A stretch of DNA of 38,802 nt from Actinomycetes bacterium (GTDB lineage: Bacteria; Actinomycetota; Actinomycetes; Prado026). The position numbers were made by a program, and so were the translations under genes. Each line of letters starts with the position of its first letter. Position 1 is the stretch's first letter. The notes beneath the pieces were generated by a model. That model saw nothing but the letters and a program-made list of their open reading frames with translations. It did not search any database and had not been told where the DNA came from. The DNA is taken from positions 1 to 38,802 of the forward strand of contig DATCDE010000072.1 in NCBI GenBank assembly GCA_036510875.1. The letters run 5' to 3'. Positions 4,425-24,584 of the stretch are shown one piece after another.

Positions 4425-6851
<2,427 letters not shown>

Positions 6852-15656: not shown

Positions 15657-17618
15657 CTAGTCGAGCGCGACGACGGCTTGGGCGAACTGCGCCGCGTACA
15701 GCCGGGCGTAGGCGCCGCCGGCGCTGATCAGCTGCTCATGGCTGCCCTGTTCGACGATCCGCCCGGACTCCATGACGAGGATCACGTCCGCGTCCCGGAT
15801 CGTCGACAGCCGGTGCGCGATGACGAAGCTGGTGCGCCCGCTGCGCAGCGAGCTCATGGCCCGCTGGATCAGTACCTCGGTCCGGGTGTCGACCGAGCTG
15901 GTGGCCTCGTCCAGGATCAGGATGGCCGGGTCGGAGAGGAACGCCCGCGCGATGGTCAGCAGCTGCTTCTCACCGGCGCTGACGTTGGTCGCCTCCTCGT
16001 CGATGACCGTGTCGTAGCCGTCCGGCAGGGTACGCACGAACCGGTCCACGTGAGTGGCCTGAGCGGCCCGCATGAGGTCGTCGTGGGTGGCGCCGTCCGC
16101 CCCGTAGGCGATGTTCTCCGCGATGGTGCCGCCGAACAGCCAGGTGTCCTGAAGCACCATTCCCATGGTGGACCGCAGGTCGTCCCTGGTCATGGCGGCG
16201 ATGTCGACCCCGTCGAGGGTGATCCGCCCGGAGTCCACCTCATAGAACCGCATCAGCAAGTTGACCAGGGTGGTCTTGCCGGCGCCGGTCGGTCCGACGA
16301 TCGCCACCGTCCGACCCGGCTCGACGGCCAGCGACATGTCCTCGATGAGCGGCTGCGCCGGGTCGTAGGCGAAGTTCACGTGCTCGAACGCCACCCGGCC
16401 CAGGACCTGCGCGGGCCGGGCCGGCGTGACCGGGTCGGGGCTCTGCTCCGGGGCGTCCAGCAGCTCGAAGACCCGCTCCGCGGACGCCACGCCGGACTGC
16501 AGCAGGTTGGCCATGCTGGCGATCTGGGAGATCGGCTGGCTGAACTGGCGGCTGTACTGGATGAACGCCTGCACGTCACCGATCGACATCGCACCGGAGG
16601 CCACCCGCAGGCCTCCCACGACGGCCACCAGCACGTAGCCGACGTTGCCGATGAACGTCATGGCCGGCTGGATCGTCCCGGAGATGAACTGGGCCCGGAA
16701 GCTCGACCCGTACAGCGCCTCGTTGAGCCCGCGGAACGTCTCCGCCGACTCGTGCTCGCGGCCGAACGCCTTGACCAGGGAGTGCCCGGAGTACATCTCC
16801 TCGATGTGGCCGTTGAGCTGTCCCGTGGTGGACCACTGGGCGACGAACTGCGGTTGGGCGCGCTTGCCGATCACGGTGGCGAGCAGTACGGACGCGGGCA
16901 CGGTGACCAGCGCGACCAGCGCCAGCAGCGGTGAGATCACGAACATCATCACCAACACCCCGACGACGGTCAGCACCGAGGTGACCAGCTGGCTCATCGT
17001 CTGCTGCAGCGTCGTCGCGATGTTGTCGATGTCGTTCGTCACGCGGCTGAGCACCTCGCCGCGTTGCTGGCCGTCGAAGTACTTCAGCGGCAGCCGGGCC
17101 AGCTTGGCCTCGACGTCCTCGCGCAGCCGGTACACCGTGCGCTGCACCACGCCCGCGGTCAGCCGGCCCTGGAACAGGGCGAACACGGAGGCGGAGACGT
17201 AGACCAGCAGTGCCACCATCAGCACCCGGCCGACCGCGGTGAAGTCGATGCCCTGCCCTGGAACGAAGTTGATCGAGGCCAGCATGTCCGCGAGCGTGGT
17301 CTCGCCGGCACTGCGCAGCTGGCCCACCGCCTGGTCCTTCGTAACCCCGGCCGGGATGCGTCGGCCGACCACGCCGGTGAAGATCAGGTCGGTGGCCCGG
17401 CCCAGGATCTTGGGCCCGAGCACGTTCAGCGCGACGCTGATGACACCGAGGGCGAGGAGGCTGAGGACCACGGGCCGCTCGGGGCCCAGCATGCGCAGCA
17501 GCCGACGGCTGGAGCCGCGGAAGTCCATGGACTTCTCCACCGGGCCGCCGCCGCCCATCCAGTGACCGGGGCCGCGTGCTGGCAGGGGCCGGCGCTCGAC
17601 GGTGCCGGCGGTGCTCAC
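15657..17618 (-). CDS. ABC exporter half-transporter (canonical ATPase site)
   Basis: This 653-residue fusion of a six-helix transmembrane domain and an ATPase is a type IV (LmrA/MsbA-like) exporter subunit. The ATPase has Walker [10 protein letters not shown], signature [15 protein letters not shown], Walker [13 protein letters not shown] with the catalytic Glu, and switch His in VIAHRLSTI. The transmembrane part starts about residue 50 ([20 protein letters not shown]). The GTG at 17618 overlaps the stop codon of the partner gene (GTGA), so the two are translationally coupled and almost certainly form one heterodimer. An insertion of about 40 residues after the first helix ([26 protein letters not shown]...) is typical of this paired actinobacterial class. 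Substrate unknown; multidrug or lipid export is the usual role. Confidence 0.92.
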
Positions 17619-19348
17619 GCAGCCTCCTGCTCGGTCAGCTGGGACAGCACGATCTCGCGATAGGTCGCGTTGTCGGCCATCAGCTCGCGGTGAGTGCCGG
17701 TTCCCACGACGGTGCCCTCGTCGAGCACGACGATGTGGTCGGCGCCCCGGATCGTGCTGACCCGCTGAGCCACGATGACGACCGTGGCGTCCGCGGTCTC
17801 CTCGGCCAGGGCGGCGCGCAGGGCGGCGTCCGTGGCGTAGTCGAGCGCGGAGAAGGAGTCGTCGAACAGGTAGATCTCCGGACGGCGGACCAGCACTCGG
17901 GCGATAGCGAGCCGCTGTCGCTGCCCACCCGAGACGTTGCCGCCCCCCTGGGCGATCGGCGCCTCGAGCCCCCCGGGCATCTGCTCGACGAACTCGCGGG
18001 CCTGGGCCACCTCCAGTGCGTGCCACAGCTCCTCGTCGCTGGCGTCCGGGCGGCCGTACCGCAGGTTCGAGGCCACCGTGCCCGAGAACAGGTAGGGCTT
18101 CTGCGGCACGAGTCCCACCGTCCGGGAAAGCAGCGCGGGGTCGAGCTGTCGGACATCGACGCCGTCGACGAGGACCGATCCTGCGGTTGCGTCGAACAGC
18201 CGCGGGATCAGGTTGAGCAGCGTGGTCTTGCCGCTGCCCGTGCTGCCGATCACCGCCGTGGTCTCACCCGGTCGGGCGAGCATCGACACGTCCCTGACCA
18301 CCGGCGCCTGCGCGCCGGGGTAGTGGAAGCCGGCCCCGCGCAGCTCGAGGTAGCCGTGCTGGGGCAGCTCGGTGACCGGCTCGGCCGCCAGGACGACGCT
18401 CGACTCGGTGCTGAGCACCTCCTCGATGCGCTCGGCGGAGACCTCGGCCCGCGGGACCATCACGAACATGAAGGTGGCCATCATGACGGCCATCAGGATC
18501 TGCATGAGGTAGCTCAGGAACGCCGTGAGCGCCCCGATCTGCATGGCCCCGCTGTCGATGCGGTGGGCGCCGAACCACAGCACGGCCACGCTGGACACGT
18601 TGATGACGAGCAGCACGCTCGGGAACATCAGCGCCATCAGCCGCCCGACGCCGAGCGAGACGGTCATCAGCTGGTCGTTGGCCCCGGCGAAGCGCTCCTG
18701 CTCGTGCTCGTCCCGGACGAACGCCCGGATCACCCGGATGCCGGTGATCTGCTCGCGCAGCAGCCGGTTCACCAGGTCGATGCGGTCCTGCATCTTGCGG
18801 AACAGCGGCCGCATCCGGCTCACGATGGCCACGACGATGACGATCAGCACCGGGACGACGACGAGCAGCAGCCCGGAAAGGGGGATGTCCTGCCGCATCG
18901 CCATGATCACGCCGCCGACGCCCATGATCGGCGCCGCGACCATGAGCGTGAACGTCATCAGGGCCAGCATCTGGACCTGCTGCACGTCGTTCGTCGTCCG
19001 GGTGATCAGGGACGGGGCCCCGAAGTGGCCGACCTCCCGGGCCGAGAACGACTGGACCTGGTCGAACACCGCACCCCGGACGTCGCGGCCGAGCGCCATC
19101 GCCACCTTGGCGCCGAGGTAGACCGCCGCCATCGCGCAGGCCACCTGGAAGACGGTGATGACCAGCATGAGGGCACCGACCCGGACGATGTAGCCGGTGT
19201 CGCCCTTGACCACGCCGTTGTCGATGATGTCCGCGTTGAGCGTGGGCAGGTACAGCGTGGCGAGGGTCTGCAGGAACTGCAGCAGCATCACCACTGCGAC
19301 CGTCCTCGCATAGGGACGCAGGAAGGTGCGGAGCAGGCGCACGAGCAC
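17615..19348 (-). CDS. ABC exporter half-transporter (degenerate ATPase site)
   Basis: This 577-residue half-transporter has six membrane helices (the first two at residues 13-35 and 50-75) and an ATPase with Walker [10 protein letters not shown], signature [16 protein letters not shown] and Walker [13 protein letters not shown]. The residue after the Walker B aspartate is Asp rather than the catalytic Glu, and the switch position is Gln ([10 protein letters not shown]) rather than His. Both are marks of the degenerate subunit in heterodimeric exporters such as BmrCD, LmrCD and TM287/288. It is the first gene of the pair. The GTG at 19348 is supported by TAGGCT six bases upstream, so the operon is probably transcribed as a leaderless mRNA. 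Confidence 0.92.
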
Positions 19349-19360: not shown

Positions 19361-19505
19361 GGCCAGCCACGCCGTGCGTCCACCGGCCCGCTAGGCACCC
19401 CGGATGGCTCATGGCCCCGGCCCCGGCTGCCGATAGAGAGGACAACGGGGGCCCGGCGTTGTGCGCCGTGGCCCTTCGACGTGCTGGGGGAGGGGGTCTC
19501 GCATC

Positions 19506-21803
19506 GTGTTGGGGGGACAGCGGCGCGCGGCCGGGCGCGGGACCCGCGTTGTCGCGCGGCTGGGCAGCCTCACCTGGGCCTGGGTCTTCGCCGGGGTCTT
19601 CGGCGGCCTGGCCCTGCGCGGCGAGGCACAAAGCGATGTCGGCCGCTCGTACCTGCTGGTCATCCTCACCGGCTTCTTCCTCACGGCCATCGCGCGACTC
19701 GGTGCCGTGGGCGCAGTCTGGAGCCAGCGCCGGCTCGCCGCGCTGGTTCTGGCGACAGCGATGCTCGCGTGGGCCGCCGGCTCCGCCGTCCTGACCGCGT
19801 CCGGGTTGGCCAACGTCCACACCTCGTTCCCGGCGCCTGGCGAGTGGCTGTTCCTGATCTTCTATCTCGCGGTGGCCGGATACGTCTTCCTCGACGCCGA
19901 CCGCCCGCCGTCCACGGCGCTCAGCGCCTGGCTGGACGCGGCCGTGGTCACCGGTGGCGTCGCCTGCCTGGCCGGCGCCCTGCTGCTGGTGCCGATGACG
20001 GCGACCTTCGGCCCCAAGGGCCTGCCCCTCATGCTGGCGCTGATGTACCCGCTGCTCGACCTGATGCTGGCCCTGGTGGTCGTGGCCCAGGCGGTGCTGC
20101 GGGCCCGCCGCTGGGACCCTTCGACGCTGCTCCTCGCGGTCGGGTTCGTGCTGCTCGCGGTCGCCGACTCCAGCATCGTGCTGAACCTCAGCTCGGGCGG
20201 CTACGACTTCACCCTGCTGCTCGACGTGACCTACGGGCTGGCCTTCGCGCTGGTGGCGACGTCGGCCTGCCGGGTCCCACGGGTGGGCAGCCTCCCGTCG
20301 GCCGCAGGGACGGGGAGCAAGATCCTGCTCAGCGCGGTGTCCGTGGCCTTGCTCTCCCTCGTGCTGCGGCCAGACGGAGCGCTCGGCTGGTACGTGACGA
20401 TCCTCGCTGTGGCCACCCTGCTGGCCGCCGGGGCACGCATGGCGCTGGCCCTGCGGGAGGCGCACGGCGCCGCGGAGGCCCAGCAGCTCTCGCTCACCGA
20501 CGACCTGACCGGCCTGCCGAACCGGCGGGCGGTCCTCGCCCAGATCGACGCCGCGATCAAGGCGGACCGGGTGTTGGCGCTCATGCTCATCGACCTCGAC
20601 GGGTTCAAGGACGTCAACGACACCTTCGGCCACGTCTCTGGCGACGCCGTCCTGCGGTTGTCCGGGCAGCGGATGCGAGCCGCCCTGCCCCGGCACGTCC
20701 AGGTGGGTCGACTGGGTGGCGACGAGTTCGCGATCCTCGTCGAGCAGGACGACCCGGTTCAGCTGCTCGAGACGGCGAACGCGCTGCGCGCGGTCCTGTC
20801 CAAGCCGACGATGGTCGAGGACCTGGAGCTCGCCGTCGGGGCCTCGATCGGGATCACGGTGCGCGAGAGGGGTGACCGGGTCAGCCCAGACCTGCTCCGC
20901 AGAGCCGACGTGGCCATGTACCAGGCCAAGATCAGTCGTGCTGGCGCGCTGCTCTACGACCACGGTAGCGACGGCTCCTCGCGCAAGCGGCTGCGCCTGG
21001 CCGAGGAGCTGCGGCGCGCCCTGCAGGGCGACGAGCTCACGGTGCACTACCAGCCGCAGGTGGAGGCAGCCACCCAGCGGGTGCTGGGGGTCGAGGCACT
21101 GGTCCGCTGGCAGCACCCGCAGCACGGTCTCGTGCTACCGGCCATCTTCCTTCCGGTGGCCAGACAGACCGGGCTCATGCTGGCAATCTCCGAGATCGTC
21201 CTGCAGCAGCTGGTCGACGACGCTCGCCGCTGGGAGGCCAGCGGGCTGTCGCTGCGGCTGTCCATGAACGTCGCCCCGCCGGAGCTGCTCGGAGGGCTGT
21301 TCCTGCCCCGCCTGTTCGACGTCGTCCAGGCCTCTGGCCTGGCTCCGGACACCTTCATCCTGGAAGTGACCGAGGATTCCTTCCTCGCCGACCCGCAGCG
21401 AGCCCGGCAGATCCTGGACGACGTCCGGGCCGTAGGGGTACAGCTGTCCATCGACGACTACGGGACTGGGTTCTCCTCCCTAGCCTACGTGCGCGACCTG
21501 CCGGTTCAGGAGCTGAAGATGGACCGGTCGTTCGTGTCCACCATCTGCCGTGACCGTCGCAGCCGCATGATCGTCGCGTCCACGAACCAGATGGCGCACG
21601 CCCTGGGCATGCGGCTGGTGGCGGAGGGCGTCGAGGACGCCGCGACGGCCGCGGAGCTGGTGGCGATCGGCGTCGACTCGATGCAGGGCTTCCACCTGGC
21701 CCGACCGATGCCCGCGTCCGAGGTGGAGCCGTGGGTCCGCCGCTGGTCCGCAGGGCGCTTGGGCGACTACGCGTCGCTGCCGCTGCGCCCCGGCGTGGCC
21801 TGA
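19506..21803 (+). CDS. Membrane GGDEF-EAL cyclic di-GMP enzyme
   Basis: This roughly 765-residue protein has about nine N-terminal membrane helices (residues 15-310), a GGDEF domain and a C-terminal EAL domain. The diguanylate cyclase motif is intact (RLGGDEF, residues 404-408), with no RxxD feedback site before it. The phosphodiesterase motif is also intact: EAL in GVEALVRW, Asn in MNVAP, Glu in LEVTED, DDYGTGFSS, Lys in LKMDRSF and Glu in AEGVED. Either activity is therefore possible. The membrane part lacks a sensor fold that I can name. Start: GTG at 19506 follows GGGGAGGGGG nine bases upstream; a GTG at 19461 in the same frame is the alternative. Its last 37 bases overlap the convergent acyltransferase gene. 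Confidence 0.92.
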   Translation: MLGGQRRAAGRGTRVVARLGSLTWAWVFAGVFGGLALRGEAQSDVGRSYLLVILTGFFLTAIARLGAVGAVWSQRRLAALVLATAMLAWAAGSAVLTASGLANVHTSFPAPGEWLFLIFYLAVAGYVFLDADRPPSTALSAWLDAAVVTGGVACLAGALLLVPMTATFGPKGLPLMLALMYPLLDLMLALVVVAQAVLRARRWDPSTLLLAVGFVLLAVADSSIVLNLSSGGYDFTLLLDVTYGLAFALVATSACRVPRVGSLPSAAGTGSKILLSAVSVALLSLVLRPDGALGWYVTILAVATLLAAGARMALALREAHGAAEAQQLSLTDDLTGLPNRRAVLAQIDAAIKADRVLALMLIDLDGFKDVNDTFGHVSGDAVLRLSGQRMRAALPRHVQVGRLGGDEFAILVEQDDPVQLLETANALRAVLSKPTMVEDLELAVGASIGITVRERGDRVSPDLLRRADVAMYQAKISRAGALLYDHGSDGSSRKRLRLAEELRRALQGDELTVHYQPQVEAATQRVLGVEALVRWQHPQHGLVLPAIFLPVARQTGLMLAISEIVLQQLVDDARRWEASGLSLRLSMNVAPPELLGGLFLPRLFDVVQASGLAPDTFILEVTEDSFLADPQRARQILDDVRAVGVQLSIDDYGTGFSSLAYVRDLPVQELKMDRSFVSTICRDRRSRMIVASTNQMAHALGMRLVAEGVEDAATAAELVAIGVDSMQGFHLARPMPASEVEPWVRRWSAGRLGDYASLPLRPGVA

Positions 21804-22525
21804 GCCCGCACCGGGAGGCCGGGCAGCTGGATGACCAGGTCGCGCTCGCGCAGCCGGAACGCGTCGTCGCCGGGCACCTCGATGCCGTCCAGGCCGATGC
21901 CCAGGCCAACCAGCCGGTAGGCGTCCGGGTTGGCCCGACGCTGGCCGTCGACCATCTTGGCGCAGTCGCCGTAGACGGGGGTGCTCGCGGGAGAGCCCAG
22001 GTAGGGCGCCGACCTCGTCCCCGGGATCGGGTGCATGTAGACGCCGAGGGCGTCCATCAGCCCCTTGACCTTGTCATCCATGATCGACACCGCGTGCCGC
22101 ACCCGGTTGACGCGCTGCACCTTGACCAGCCCGTGGTACAGCGCGACGGACGCCAGCATCCCCTCCGCCCCCAGCCCAGTGCGCACGCCGACGGTGGCGA
22201 TGTCCCACGTGGTGGCGGGCTGGAGCCCGGCGGCGGCTGCCGCCCGCTCGCCGTCGACGTTCCACGGGTCGGCGCCGATGTCCGCCAGCGTCTTCAGCCC
22301 GAGCGGCCCCGGGGTGATCAGCCGGCAGGCCGCGATGACCTGGCCGTCGTCGTCGGCCAGTGCGAGGAAGGTGGAGTGGTCGGCGTAGGGCCCGTACTCG
22401 TCGTCGAGCTGGGCGCGGGTGTTCCCGTACCACTGGAGGAAGACCGCTGCCTCGCACTCCAGCGCGGCGTCGAGCAGCGAGCCGCGGACGTCGAAGCGGA
22501 GGTGCAGCAGGCCTGGCCGGGCCAT
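21767..22525 (-). CDS. GNAT-fold N-acyltransferase resembling LuxI/FeeM autoinducer synthases
   Basis: This 252-residue protein shows the order of conserved elements of the LuxI/FeeM branch of the acetyltransferase fold: an aromatic-rich helix (ECEAAVFLQWY, residues 23-33), an acidic stretch (LDDEYGPYADHSTFLAL, from residue 40), the strand DDGQVIAACRLI with a conserved Arg (residue 68), and WDIATVGVR in the place of the Glu-Arg strand. FeeM and LuxI enzymes join an acyl chain from acyl-ACP to an amino acid or to SAM. The length exceeds LuxI (about 200 residues); the extra C-terminal part (residues 170-252) is unfamiliar. The ATG at 22525 has AAGGGAGA four bases upstream. I infer acyltransfer; the product is unknown, and plain GNAT acetyltransferase is the alternative. 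Confidence 0.6.
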   Translation of the reverse strand: MARPGLLHLRFDVRGSLLDAALECEAAVFLQWYGNTRAQLDDEYGPYADHSTFLALADDDGQVIAACRLITPGPLGLKTLADIGADPWNVDGERAAAAAGLQPATTWDIATVGVRTGLGAEGMLASVALYHGLVKVQRVNRVRHAVSIMDDKVKGLMDALGVYMHPIPGTRSAPYLGSPASTPVYGDCAKMVDGQRRANPDAYRLVGLGIGLDGIEVPGDDAFRLRERDLVIQLPGLPVRAQATPGRSGSDA

Positions 22526-22638: not shown

Positions 22639-23631
22639 GTGCGGACGGAGCGAGAGATCACCGACCCGGTGGACCTGTGCACCCCCGACGGCCGCCTCAA
22701 CCCGGCCGCGGTCGGCTGGACGAGGGTCCCGCTCCACACGGCGAACCTGCGCGGGTGGGGTCGGACCAAGCGCTGGGAGTACTGGGGGATCGTTACCCCG
22801 ACGCACGTGGTGGGCCTGACCGTGTCCTCCCTCGACTACGCGGGCGTGCACGGGCTGTACGTCCTCGACCGGACCACCGCCGCCGAGATCGTGCGGGACG
22901 TCGTGGTGCCGTTCGCCCGCGGGGTCGTGCTGCCCACGCGCAGTGCCGGGGGACCGGCCAGGGCTCGCGCCAAGGACTTGACCATCGACCTGGACGAGAC
23001 CAGCGAGGGGACCCGGCTGCGGGCCAGCGCACCCGGCGTCGAGGTCGACGTCCTGGCGCATCGGCCGGACGGCCACGAGTCGCTCGGTGTGGTGGTGCCG
23101 TGGAGCCGCCGGCTGTTCCAGTACACGGTGAAGGACGTCGCCCGGCCCGCCTCCGGGCGCCTAGTCGTGCACGGCGTCACCCACCCGCTCGCCGCGGACT
23201 CGTCGTTCGCGGTCCTGGACCACGGCCGTGGGCGGTGGCCGTACTCGATCACCTGGAACTGGGGGGCCGGCTACGGCCAGGTGGCCGGGGGTGCGGTCGG
23301 CATCCAGATCGGCGGGAAGTGGACCGACGGGACCGGGTCGACCGAGAACGGCCTGTTCGTGGACGGTCGGCTGCACAAGATCAGCGACGAGCTGCGGTGG
23401 GACTACGACCGCAGCGAATGGAAACGACCGTGGTCGATCACCGGGCAGCGCCTCGACCTGCGTTTCGACCCCTTCCACGAGCGGGTCGCGCGCACCAACC
23501 TCGCCGTGGTGGCCGCCGAGACCCATCAGTGCTTCGGCCACTACACCGGGTGGGCCTCGACCGACGACGGCGAGCGGGTGTCGCTGGACGGAGTCGTTGG
23601 CTGGGCGGAGGAGGCCCGCAACCGCTGGTAG
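22639..23631 (+). CDS. DUF2804 family protein
   Basis: This 330-residue protein carries the DUF2804 hallmarks: an N-terminal LCTPDGRLNPAAVGWTRVPLHTANLRGWGRTKRWEYWGI, a central beta-rich domain with LDHGRGRWPYSITWNWGAG, and the C-terminal LRFDPFHERVARTNLAVVAAETHQCFGHYTG. The family is found in many bacteria, is predicted to form a double beta-sandwich, and has no established biochemical function. Start at GTG 22639 follows a TAGGTT box at the leaderless distance. The DUF389 gene begins 17 bases after its stop in the same direction, so the two may be co-transcribed. Confidence 0.88.
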   Translation: MRTEREITDPVDLCTPDGRLNPAAVGWTRVPLHTANLRGWGRTKRWEYWGIVTPTHVVGLTVSSLDYAGVHGLYVLDRTTAAEIVRDVVVPFARGVVLPTRSAGGPARARAKDLTIDLDETSEGTRLRASAPGVEVDVLAHRPDGHESLGVVVPWSRRLFQYTVKDVARPASGRLVVHGVTHPLAADSSFAVLDHGRGRWPYSITWNWGAGYGQVAGGAVGIQIGGKWTDGTGSTENGLFVDGRLHKISDELRWDYDRSEWKRPWSITGQRLDLRFDPFHERVARTNLAVVAAETHQCFGHYTGWASTDDGERVSLDGVVGWAEEARNRW

Positions 23632-23648
23632 AGCGGCAGGATGCTGTC

Positions 23649-24584
23649 GTGCTGCACCTGCGCATCTACGCACCGGCGTCCCAGCGGGAGGCGGTGGCCG
23701 CCGTCCTGCGCGACCATCCCGCGGTGAGCAGCCTCGCGGTGCTCGTGGACGCCTCCGTACGGCCGCCGGGCGACGTGATCCTCGCGGACGTCGCCCGCGA
23801 GGCGGCCAACGACGTCATCGACCGGGTGCGGGCCACCGGGGTGCAGGCCGAGGGCGCCATCCAGATCGAGCCGGTCCGCACCTGGATCTCGCGGGAGGGA
23901 CTGGACGCCGAACGCAGGACGCCGGGCAGCAGCGCCGACGCGGTGGTCTGGGCCGATGTCGTGCAGCGCGCCTACGAGGACTCCGAGTTGACCTGGTCCT
24001 ACGTGAGCTTCATGCTGCTGGCCACCCTGCTGGCCAGCATCGCGATCGTCCTGGACTCCCCGGTCCTGCTCGTCGGCGCCATGGTGCTCGGGCCCGAGTT
24101 CGGGGCCATCGCCGCGCTGGGACTGGCCCTCGTACGGCGTCGCCGTCGACTGTTCTCGCTGGCCCTGCGGACCGTCGTCGTGGGCTTCGCGTCCTCCATC
24201 GTGGCGACCACCCTGTTGGTGCTCGTCGGGAGGTGGCTGGGCTGGATCGTCCGCGACGACGTTGCCGGGCTTCGGCCGAGTACCGCCTTCATCTACCAGC
24301 CCGGCCGGTGGTCGCTCGTTGTCGCCGTGATCGCCGGCGCGGCCGGCGTCCTGTCCCTGACGTCTGCTCGCACGACCGGGCTGGTGGGCGTCTTCGTCTC
24401 GGTGACCACCGTCCCGGCTGCCGGGAACGTGGCCCTGGGCCTCGCTTTCGGGGTCCGGGAGGAGGTCTGGGGCAGCACCCTGCAGCTGCTCATCAACATC
24501 ACCGGGATGGCGATCGCCGGGTGGGCCACCCTGGCCGTCCAGTCGGCCGTGTGGGGAGCGGCGAACCGCCGACATCGCCGTTAG
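23649..24584 (+). CDS. DUF389 membrane protein
   Basis: This 311-residue protein has an N-terminal soluble ferredoxin-like domain (VLHLRIYAPASQREAVAAVL to about residue 100) followed by six or so membrane helices. The membrane part opens with SYVSFMLLATLLASIAIVLDSPVLLVGAMVLGPEFGAIAALGLAL, the conserved DUF389 core with its Gly-Pro motif (GAMVLGP) in the second helix. DUF389 proteins are predicted small-molecule or ion transporters without a proven substrate. The GTG at 23649 is chosen because the conserved soluble domain starts there; CAGGAT six bases upstream could act as a -10 box, and GGCAGGAT as a weak Shine-Dalgarno. Its TAG overlaps the TAA of the convergent broken small gene. Confidence 0.87.
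   Translation: MLHLRIYAPASQREAVAAVLRDHPAVSSLAVLVDASVRPPGDVILADVAREAANDVIDRVRATGVQAEGAIQIEPVRTWISREGLDAERRTPGSSADAVVWADVVQRAYEDSELTWSYVSFMLLATLLASIAIVLDSPVLLVGAMVLGPEFGAIAALGLALVRRRRRLFSLALRTVVVGFASSIVATTLLVLVGRWLGWIVRDDVAGLRPSTAFIYQPGRWSLVVAVIAGAAGVLSLTSARTTGLVGVFVSVTTVPAAGNVALGLAFGVREEVWGSTLQLLINITGMAIAGWATLAVQSAVWGAANRRHRR

Follow-up and report, generated by a model that had tools for sequence, protein, structure and literature searches.

LuxI-type acyl signals have been described chiefly in Gram-negative bacteria, where LuxR is the receptor. LuxI enzymes acylate S-adenosylmethionine (SAM), and their FeeM/OlsB-type relatives produce N-acyl amino acids and aminolipids. In Streptomyces, the proteins RmdA and RmdB consist of a membrane domain followed by a GGDEF and an EAL domain. 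A candidate acyl-signal synthase without luxR, the luxI solo rhdI, has recently been reported for Actinomycetota (PMC13136126), with no receptor gene found next to it. Here we analysed a stretch of 38,802 nucleotides (the window: contig DATCDE010000072.1, positions 1 to 38,802, of assembly GCA_036510875.1) from an Actinomycetes bacterium (Prado026), in which a gene encoding an N-acyltransferase of the LuxI/FeeM superfamily lies tail-to-tail with a gene encoding a membrane GGDEF-EAL protein. We found the two genes together in related genomes, in many of them with a decarboxylase gene as a third member, and we give an even chance to the reading that the pair in the window represents a signalling module of two to three genes that is conserved in Actinomycetota and in which an amine is made, N-acylated and then sensed by the membrane domain of the GGDEF-EAL protein.

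According to this reading, the LuxI/FeeM-like enzyme would take a fatty acyl group, bound as a thioester to acyl carrier protein or to coenzyme A (CoA), and transfer it to the amino group of a small molecule. The acceptor in most relatives would be the amine made by the module's own amino acid decarboxylase (a SpeD-like enzyme of the pyruvoyl type or, in one clade, a pyridoxal phosphate (PLP)-dependent group-II enzyme), and an N-acyl amine, not a homoserine lactone, would result. In the window organism, an N-acylated amine or amino acid would be formed with an acceptor from general metabolism. The membrane domain of about ten helices would sense the product, upon which the GGDEF-EAL enzyme would shift the cellular level of cyclic di-GMP (c-di-GMP). 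If this is true, a receptor that is not a transcription factor translates the signal directly into a change in c-di-GMP. The fold and family of the acyltransferase, the linkage, co-occurrence and co-evolution of the pair, the exchange of decarboxylase types and the intact GGDEF and EAL motifs come from the sequence data, whereas the acyl donor, the amine, the product and its sensing are inferred.

We found no description of the acyltransferase/GGDEF-EAL/decarboxylase trio in the open-licence PubMed Central (PMC) literature, in which the report on AHL production in actinomycetes (PMC13136126), at loci with other neighbours, came closest. Of the parts, only the membrane sensor domain falls outside known folds and families, but their combination appears to be new, and the whole seems to be a chemical signalling system that has not been described before and whose sender and receiver travel together. 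That it represents an undescribed class of actinobacterial small-molecule signalling (an N-acyl amine derived from the product of a dedicated decarboxylase, a membrane GGDEF-EAL protein with a new sensor domain as the receptor, and synthase and receptor inherited as a pair) is a more tentative claim, to which we give somewhat less than an even chance. The link of a LuxI-fold synthase to a c-di-GMP enzyme as candidate receptor occurs in cultured genera, among them Nocardioides, Aeromicrobium, Actinotalea and Blastococcus; an acyl signal with its receptor thereby becomes directly testable in Gram-positive bacteria, and a new membrane sensor domain gains a likely ligand class.

An acyltransferase of the LuxI/FeeM superfamily

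The open reading frame (ORF) of the acyltransferase starts with ATG and is a real gene and not a chance reading frame, since 66 homologues align with it around invariant residues (E25, V28, F29, G34, N35, Y44, R68, K78, W107, D150, Y175 and S178) and its AlphaFold2 (AF2) model has a pLDDT of 88 and a pTM of 0.84. The features from which a preliminary description of this DNA had started, i.e. a 252-residue product with an acidic stretch (D41-D42-E43-Y44), a strand with a conserved arginine (Arg68, within strand 63-70) and the motif W107-DIATVGVR, are all present in sequence and model. A Foldseek search with the model gave entries of the N-acyl-homoserine lactone (AHL) synthase BjaI as its top four matches (best E-value 5.9e-7), with LasI after them (TMt 0.67), while FeeM (2g0b) had the highest query TM-score among the matches listed (TMq 0.56; TMt 0.73). 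The top match is thus an AHL synthase and not an ordinary acetyl-CoA GNAT, although ordinary GNATs come close behind by E-value, and because BjaI and LasI lead the list and FeeM has the highest TMq we consider the fold to be LuxI/FeeM-like.

Profile searches placed the window protein in neither of the two families to which it had been compared beforehand. Against Autoind_synth (PF00765) it scored 11.3 bits (E 0.25), below the curated cut-off of 24 bits, with E 0.011 for the best of 10 family members, and a PF00765 search across the genome of the window organism gave no match. The FeeM family (PF21926) did not match the window protein and matched only 1 of the 10 members weakly (E 0.0054), so that the likeness to FeeM is one of fold and the sequence model was not passed. 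The closest curated sequence family was that of the PEP-CTERM/exosortase-associated acyltransferases (TIGR03694), with matches for 9 of the 10 members (best E 1.4e-8), but the window protein (23.6 bits, E 2.9e-5) stays far below its cut-off of 111.95 bits. One family member matched Acetyltransf_5 (E 0.15). A single-sequence search of the window protein against PDB sequences gave no match, and the profile of the 10 members found only LasI there (E 0.038). The family is an uncurated member of the LuxI/FeeM/exosortase-acyltransferase superfamily, outside every curated family searched. No exosortase/PEP-CTERM-type family was recognised among the recurrent neighbours of the acyltransferase gene in 63 loci; rarer neighbours were not annotated singly and no exosortase search of the genomes was made.

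In LuxI proteins, Arg24, Phe28 and Trp34 have been described as absolutely conserved (PMC3704786), and a wider list of conserved residues has been published (PMC5539150). Taking the correspondence from the alignment of the family profile with LasI, we found that Phe28 (F29, part of the N-terminal VF motif) and Arg70 (R68) are kept in 66 of 66 members and that Glu101 is kept as an acidic residue (D/E108). In contrast, Arg24 is Glu25 and Arg104 is Thr/Ser111, both in 66 of 66, Trp34 falls on the invariant G34-N35 (aligned to Asn35) and Asp45 is Gly45 in 61 of 66. With substitutions at these four positions in nearly every member, the acyltransferase is, to judge from its sequence, not a LuxI. Of the initial assignment, an acyltransferase of the LuxI/FeeM type was upheld by the structure comparison, whereas a true LuxI or AHL synthase was not, the defining residues being gone and the Autoind_synth score below its cut-off.

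Conserved pairing with a membrane GGDEF-EAL protein

Nine clear relatives of the acyltransferase were found among 395 actinomycete genomes, and 61 loci on public contigs (of Actinotalea, Pengzhenrongella, Nocardioides, Pimelobacter, Aeromicrobium, Blastococcus, Modestobacter, Geodermatophilus, Acidimicrobiaceae and others), the carriers being many soil and freshwater actinobacteria. A search of plasmids gave no match, and two weak matches to the acyltransferase (in genomes G034 and G377) were discarded as spurious for their low identity and, in one case, an internal stop.

Clustering of neighbours (63 loci) and a six-frame hidden Markov model (HMM) check (67 loci) showed the same GGDEF-EAL protein next to the acyltransferase gene in 64 of the 67, in line with the conservation expected from the preliminary description. 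Of the three loci without this neighbour, two lie at contig ends (L014 and L045) and the third (L070) is divergent. The pairing is not a matter of frozen gene order, because the tree of the family requires four or more switches between the convergent and the co-directional arrangement, with adjacency retained. Pairwise distances of the acyltransferase and of the GGDEF-EAL protein were correlated (r = 0.93 over 58 loci, 0 of 2000 permutations), a value to which shared species history contributes. The divergent homologue of locus L070 (Blastococcus sp. TBT05-19) has neither a GGDEF-EAL partner nor a decarboxylase, is flanked by genes for proteins of 620 and 490 aa and is possibly a paralogue in another role.

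In the partner protein, Pfam identified both the GGDEF domain (7e-34) and the EAL domain (4e-65). Their catalytic residues are intact throughout the orthologues (Table 1), which makes both synthesis and breakdown of c-di-GMP possible. The first ~325 residues form the membrane domain, for which Pfam gave no family and a fold search of the PDB nothing better than the value in Table 1. While the order of domains is that of RmdA and RmdB, the membrane domain differs from that of such proteins in having no known family or fold and in hardly occurring outside genomes that encode the acyltransferase: it was found in 12 of the 395 genomes, 9 of which are acyltransferase-positive (Fisher p 3.7e-15, a nominal value as the genomes are related). 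One Blastococcus genome (G390) was left out of this count, as its membrane domain is too diverged to match even though the GGDEF-EAL gene is adjacent. A distant copy of the membrane domain was seen at three loci (L138, L140 and L141, in genomes G288, G076 and G310) where no acyltransferase was detected, two of the ORFs being short (468-480 aa), and the domain may also be used elsewhere, outside the module.

Two types of decarboxylase as the third gene

A point absent from the preliminary description is the decarboxylase gene that is linked to the pair in relatives. A gene for an AdoMetDC/SpeD-like protein of the pyruvoyl type (~100-150 aa) is linked in 45 loci and a gene for a PLP group-II decarboxylase (~445 aa) in 13 loci, and no locus has both. 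The SpeD-like proteins passed the cut-off of AdoMet_dc (PF02675; 25 bits) in 5 of 5 cases tested (26.9-40.6 bits); the PLP enzymes matched Pyridoxal_deC (PF00282) with E-values of 4.2e-49 and 7.4e-55 and retain the PLP-binding lysine of the PHKW motif in 13 of 13. Most SpeD-like genes end within 1 nt of the acyltransferase start, which fits a translationally coupled operon. In one locus (L013, ~5200-5600) the SpeD-like gene is split into two same-strand HMM pieces, perhaps by a frameshift or a sequencing error.

On the tree a single exchange between the SpeD-like and the PLP type suffices, for which the simplest placement is a common ancestor of the Nocardioidaceae and their neighbours. That a decarboxylase was swapped for one of an unrelated type within the same module, be it in one event only, suggests that the module needs a decarboxylated amino acid, i.e. 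an amine, and is the best clue to its chemistry.

For the SpeD-like protein, the family assignment was taken from Pfam and from an alignment to SpeD homologues from within the phylum, since a profile search against PDB sequences gave only RNA-binding-domain noise and no AdoMetDC. In this alignment the pyruvoyl serine (Ser63) and the catalytic Cys83 are kept. We found no other SpeD in 10 SpeD-like-carrying genomes tested, by a search that was too insensitive for most of the SpeD-like genes themselves; genes of the spermidine synthase family were found in 6 of these 10, mostly as weak matches. In genomes of such a kind, SpeD homologues have been shown to have turned into ornithine or arginine decarboxylases (PMC10407285). 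The module proteins resemble these neofunctionalised forms (SpeDA and SpeDC) in the lack of a detected second SpeD and in the retained serine and cysteine, but they have a tyrosine for His68 and are linked to the acyltransferase and GGDEF-EAL genes, not to polyamine genes.

Weighing of the proposed signalling module against alternatives

Several observations weigh against the proposed module. No decarboxylase gene is linked to the pair in the window or in a few other loci, so that the acceptor there must come from general metabolism or from an unlinked enzyme, and the genome of the window organism (95% complete) gave no credible match to a SpeD-like gene (best E 0.03). Another of its contigs (G000:C244) does encode a PLP group-II decarboxylase (L106:10889-12241) that is a 48% homologue of the PLP enzyme of the module. 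It belongs to a sister clade of the module-linked enzymes, and homologues occur in 56 of 198 actinomycete genomes. As very small genomes (1.2-1.5 Mb) are among these, a core function is suggested; several genomes with the SpeD-like gene have a homologue as well. As a common actinobacterial gene of a sister clade it was set aside as the amine source of the window, and because it is so widespread it was not counted as evidence. Furthermore, self-processing and activity of the SpeD-like protein are only putative, as His68 is replaced by tyrosine in 44 of 44 proteins, and no dedicated exporter is conserved among the recurrent neighbours of the 63 clustered loci. We found no biochemistry for any member of the family, and it is from co-occurrence that the membrane domain is proposed to bind the product.

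The alternative that fares best is that the product of the acyltransferase is an N-acyl lipid (an aminolipid) that is structural or stays within the cell, with the GGDEF-EAL protein as a local regulator or as a membrane sensor of this lipid and no signal between cells. The products of the FeeM/OlsB-type relatives, the single-member matches to FeeM and Acetyltransf_5, the membrane location of the partner and the missing exporter would all fit. Yet a single synthase is matched by a single c-di-GMP sensor, whose membrane domain co-evolves with it and is specific to the module, which resembles a ligand and its receptor more than bulk lipid synthesis, and we consider this alternative unlikely, though not negligible.

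Less probable still, with a low chance, is that the acceptor is SAM or decarboxylated SAM, the SpeD-like protein being a real AdoMet decarboxylase whose product is acylated. This would agree with the acylation of SAM by LuxI and with the AdoMetDC family of the linked protein. However, AdoMetDC His68, the proline after Trp70 and Glu72 are replaced in the SpeD-like proteins, LuxI Arg24 and Arg104 are gone from the acyltransferase, and one clade uses a PLP group-II amino acid decarboxylase instead, a type of enzyme for which no action on SAM is known.

It is very unlikely that the enzyme is an authentic, divergent AHL synthase making homoserine lactones, like that of the Rhodococcus solo luxI. 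The fold is shared, Autoind_synth matches weakly and disruption of an actinomycete luxI homologue is reported to have abolished AHLs (PMC13136126), but four conserved LuxI residues, among them Arg24 and Trp34, are replaced, and for a lactone product a decarboxylase partner would have no obvious role. Nor is the partner a LuxR, as it would be for BjaI or LasI, but a GGDEF-EAL enzyme with, in relatives, the decarboxylase. The published luxI genes themselves (of GV4 and Y88A) lie beside iscS, mnmA and etfAB, with no GGDEF-EAL partner reported in the sections consulted (PMC13136126); as the same system they were set aside on a comparison of gene neighbourhoods only.

Equally little is to be said for modification of a protein, for instance of the GGDEF-EAL enzyme, in place of a small molecule: GNAT-fold enzymes can acylate proteins and many GNATs appear in the Foldseek list at similar E-values, but LuxI/FeeM-type matches lead it by E-value or query TM-score and the presence of a decarboxylase partner argues for a small amine as acceptor. 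Hardly credible, finally, is the proposal of the preliminary description that the overlap of the two genes is a regulatory device by which opposing transcripts control each other, since the overlap, real in the window and of exactly the 37 nt given there, is not conserved in relatives (-116 to +69 nt between the genes of 24 convergent loci, the remaining arrangements being co-directional) and, with spacing and even orientation so variable, is probably incidental.

Features and surroundings of the locus

The features of the locus are collected in Table 1. A scan for promoters and terminators gave no result.

Table 1. Positions of the paired genes and their domains in the window
Feature	Position	Strand	Evidence
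N-acyltransferase of the LuxI/FeeM superfamily, putative signal synthase, 252 aa	21767..22525	-	ORF; family of 66 members; AF2 pLDDT 88; Foldseek BjaI/LasI/FeeM
Membrane GGDEF-EAL protein, putative receptor/effector, 765 aa (780 aa from the alternative start at 19461)	19506..21803	+	Pfam; adjoins acyltransferase in 64/67 loci
Membrane domain of the GGDEF-EAL protein, ~10 helices	19506..20480	+	No Pfam match; AF2 pLDDT 89; best PDB fold match E 0.064
GGDEF domain, RxGGDEF motif intact	20493..20933	+	Pfam; G404-G405-D406-E407-F408 invariant in 58 orthologues
EAL domain, catalytic residues intact	21003..21707	+	E530AL, N588, E620, D650-D651, K671 and E707 at 100% in 58 orthologues
Convergent overlap of both coding sequences, judged incidental	21767..21803		Exactly 37 nt including the stop codons; spacing variable in relatives

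Just past the start of the GGDEF-EAL gene lie two neighbouring genes for ABC exporter half-transporters (15657-19348, minus strand), outside the conserved neighbourhood. On the other side, a DUF2804 gene (2e-110) lies 113 nt upstream of the acyltransferase gene and diverges from it, followed by a gene for a DUF389 membrane protein (together 22639-24584); these neighbours are not kept in relatives.

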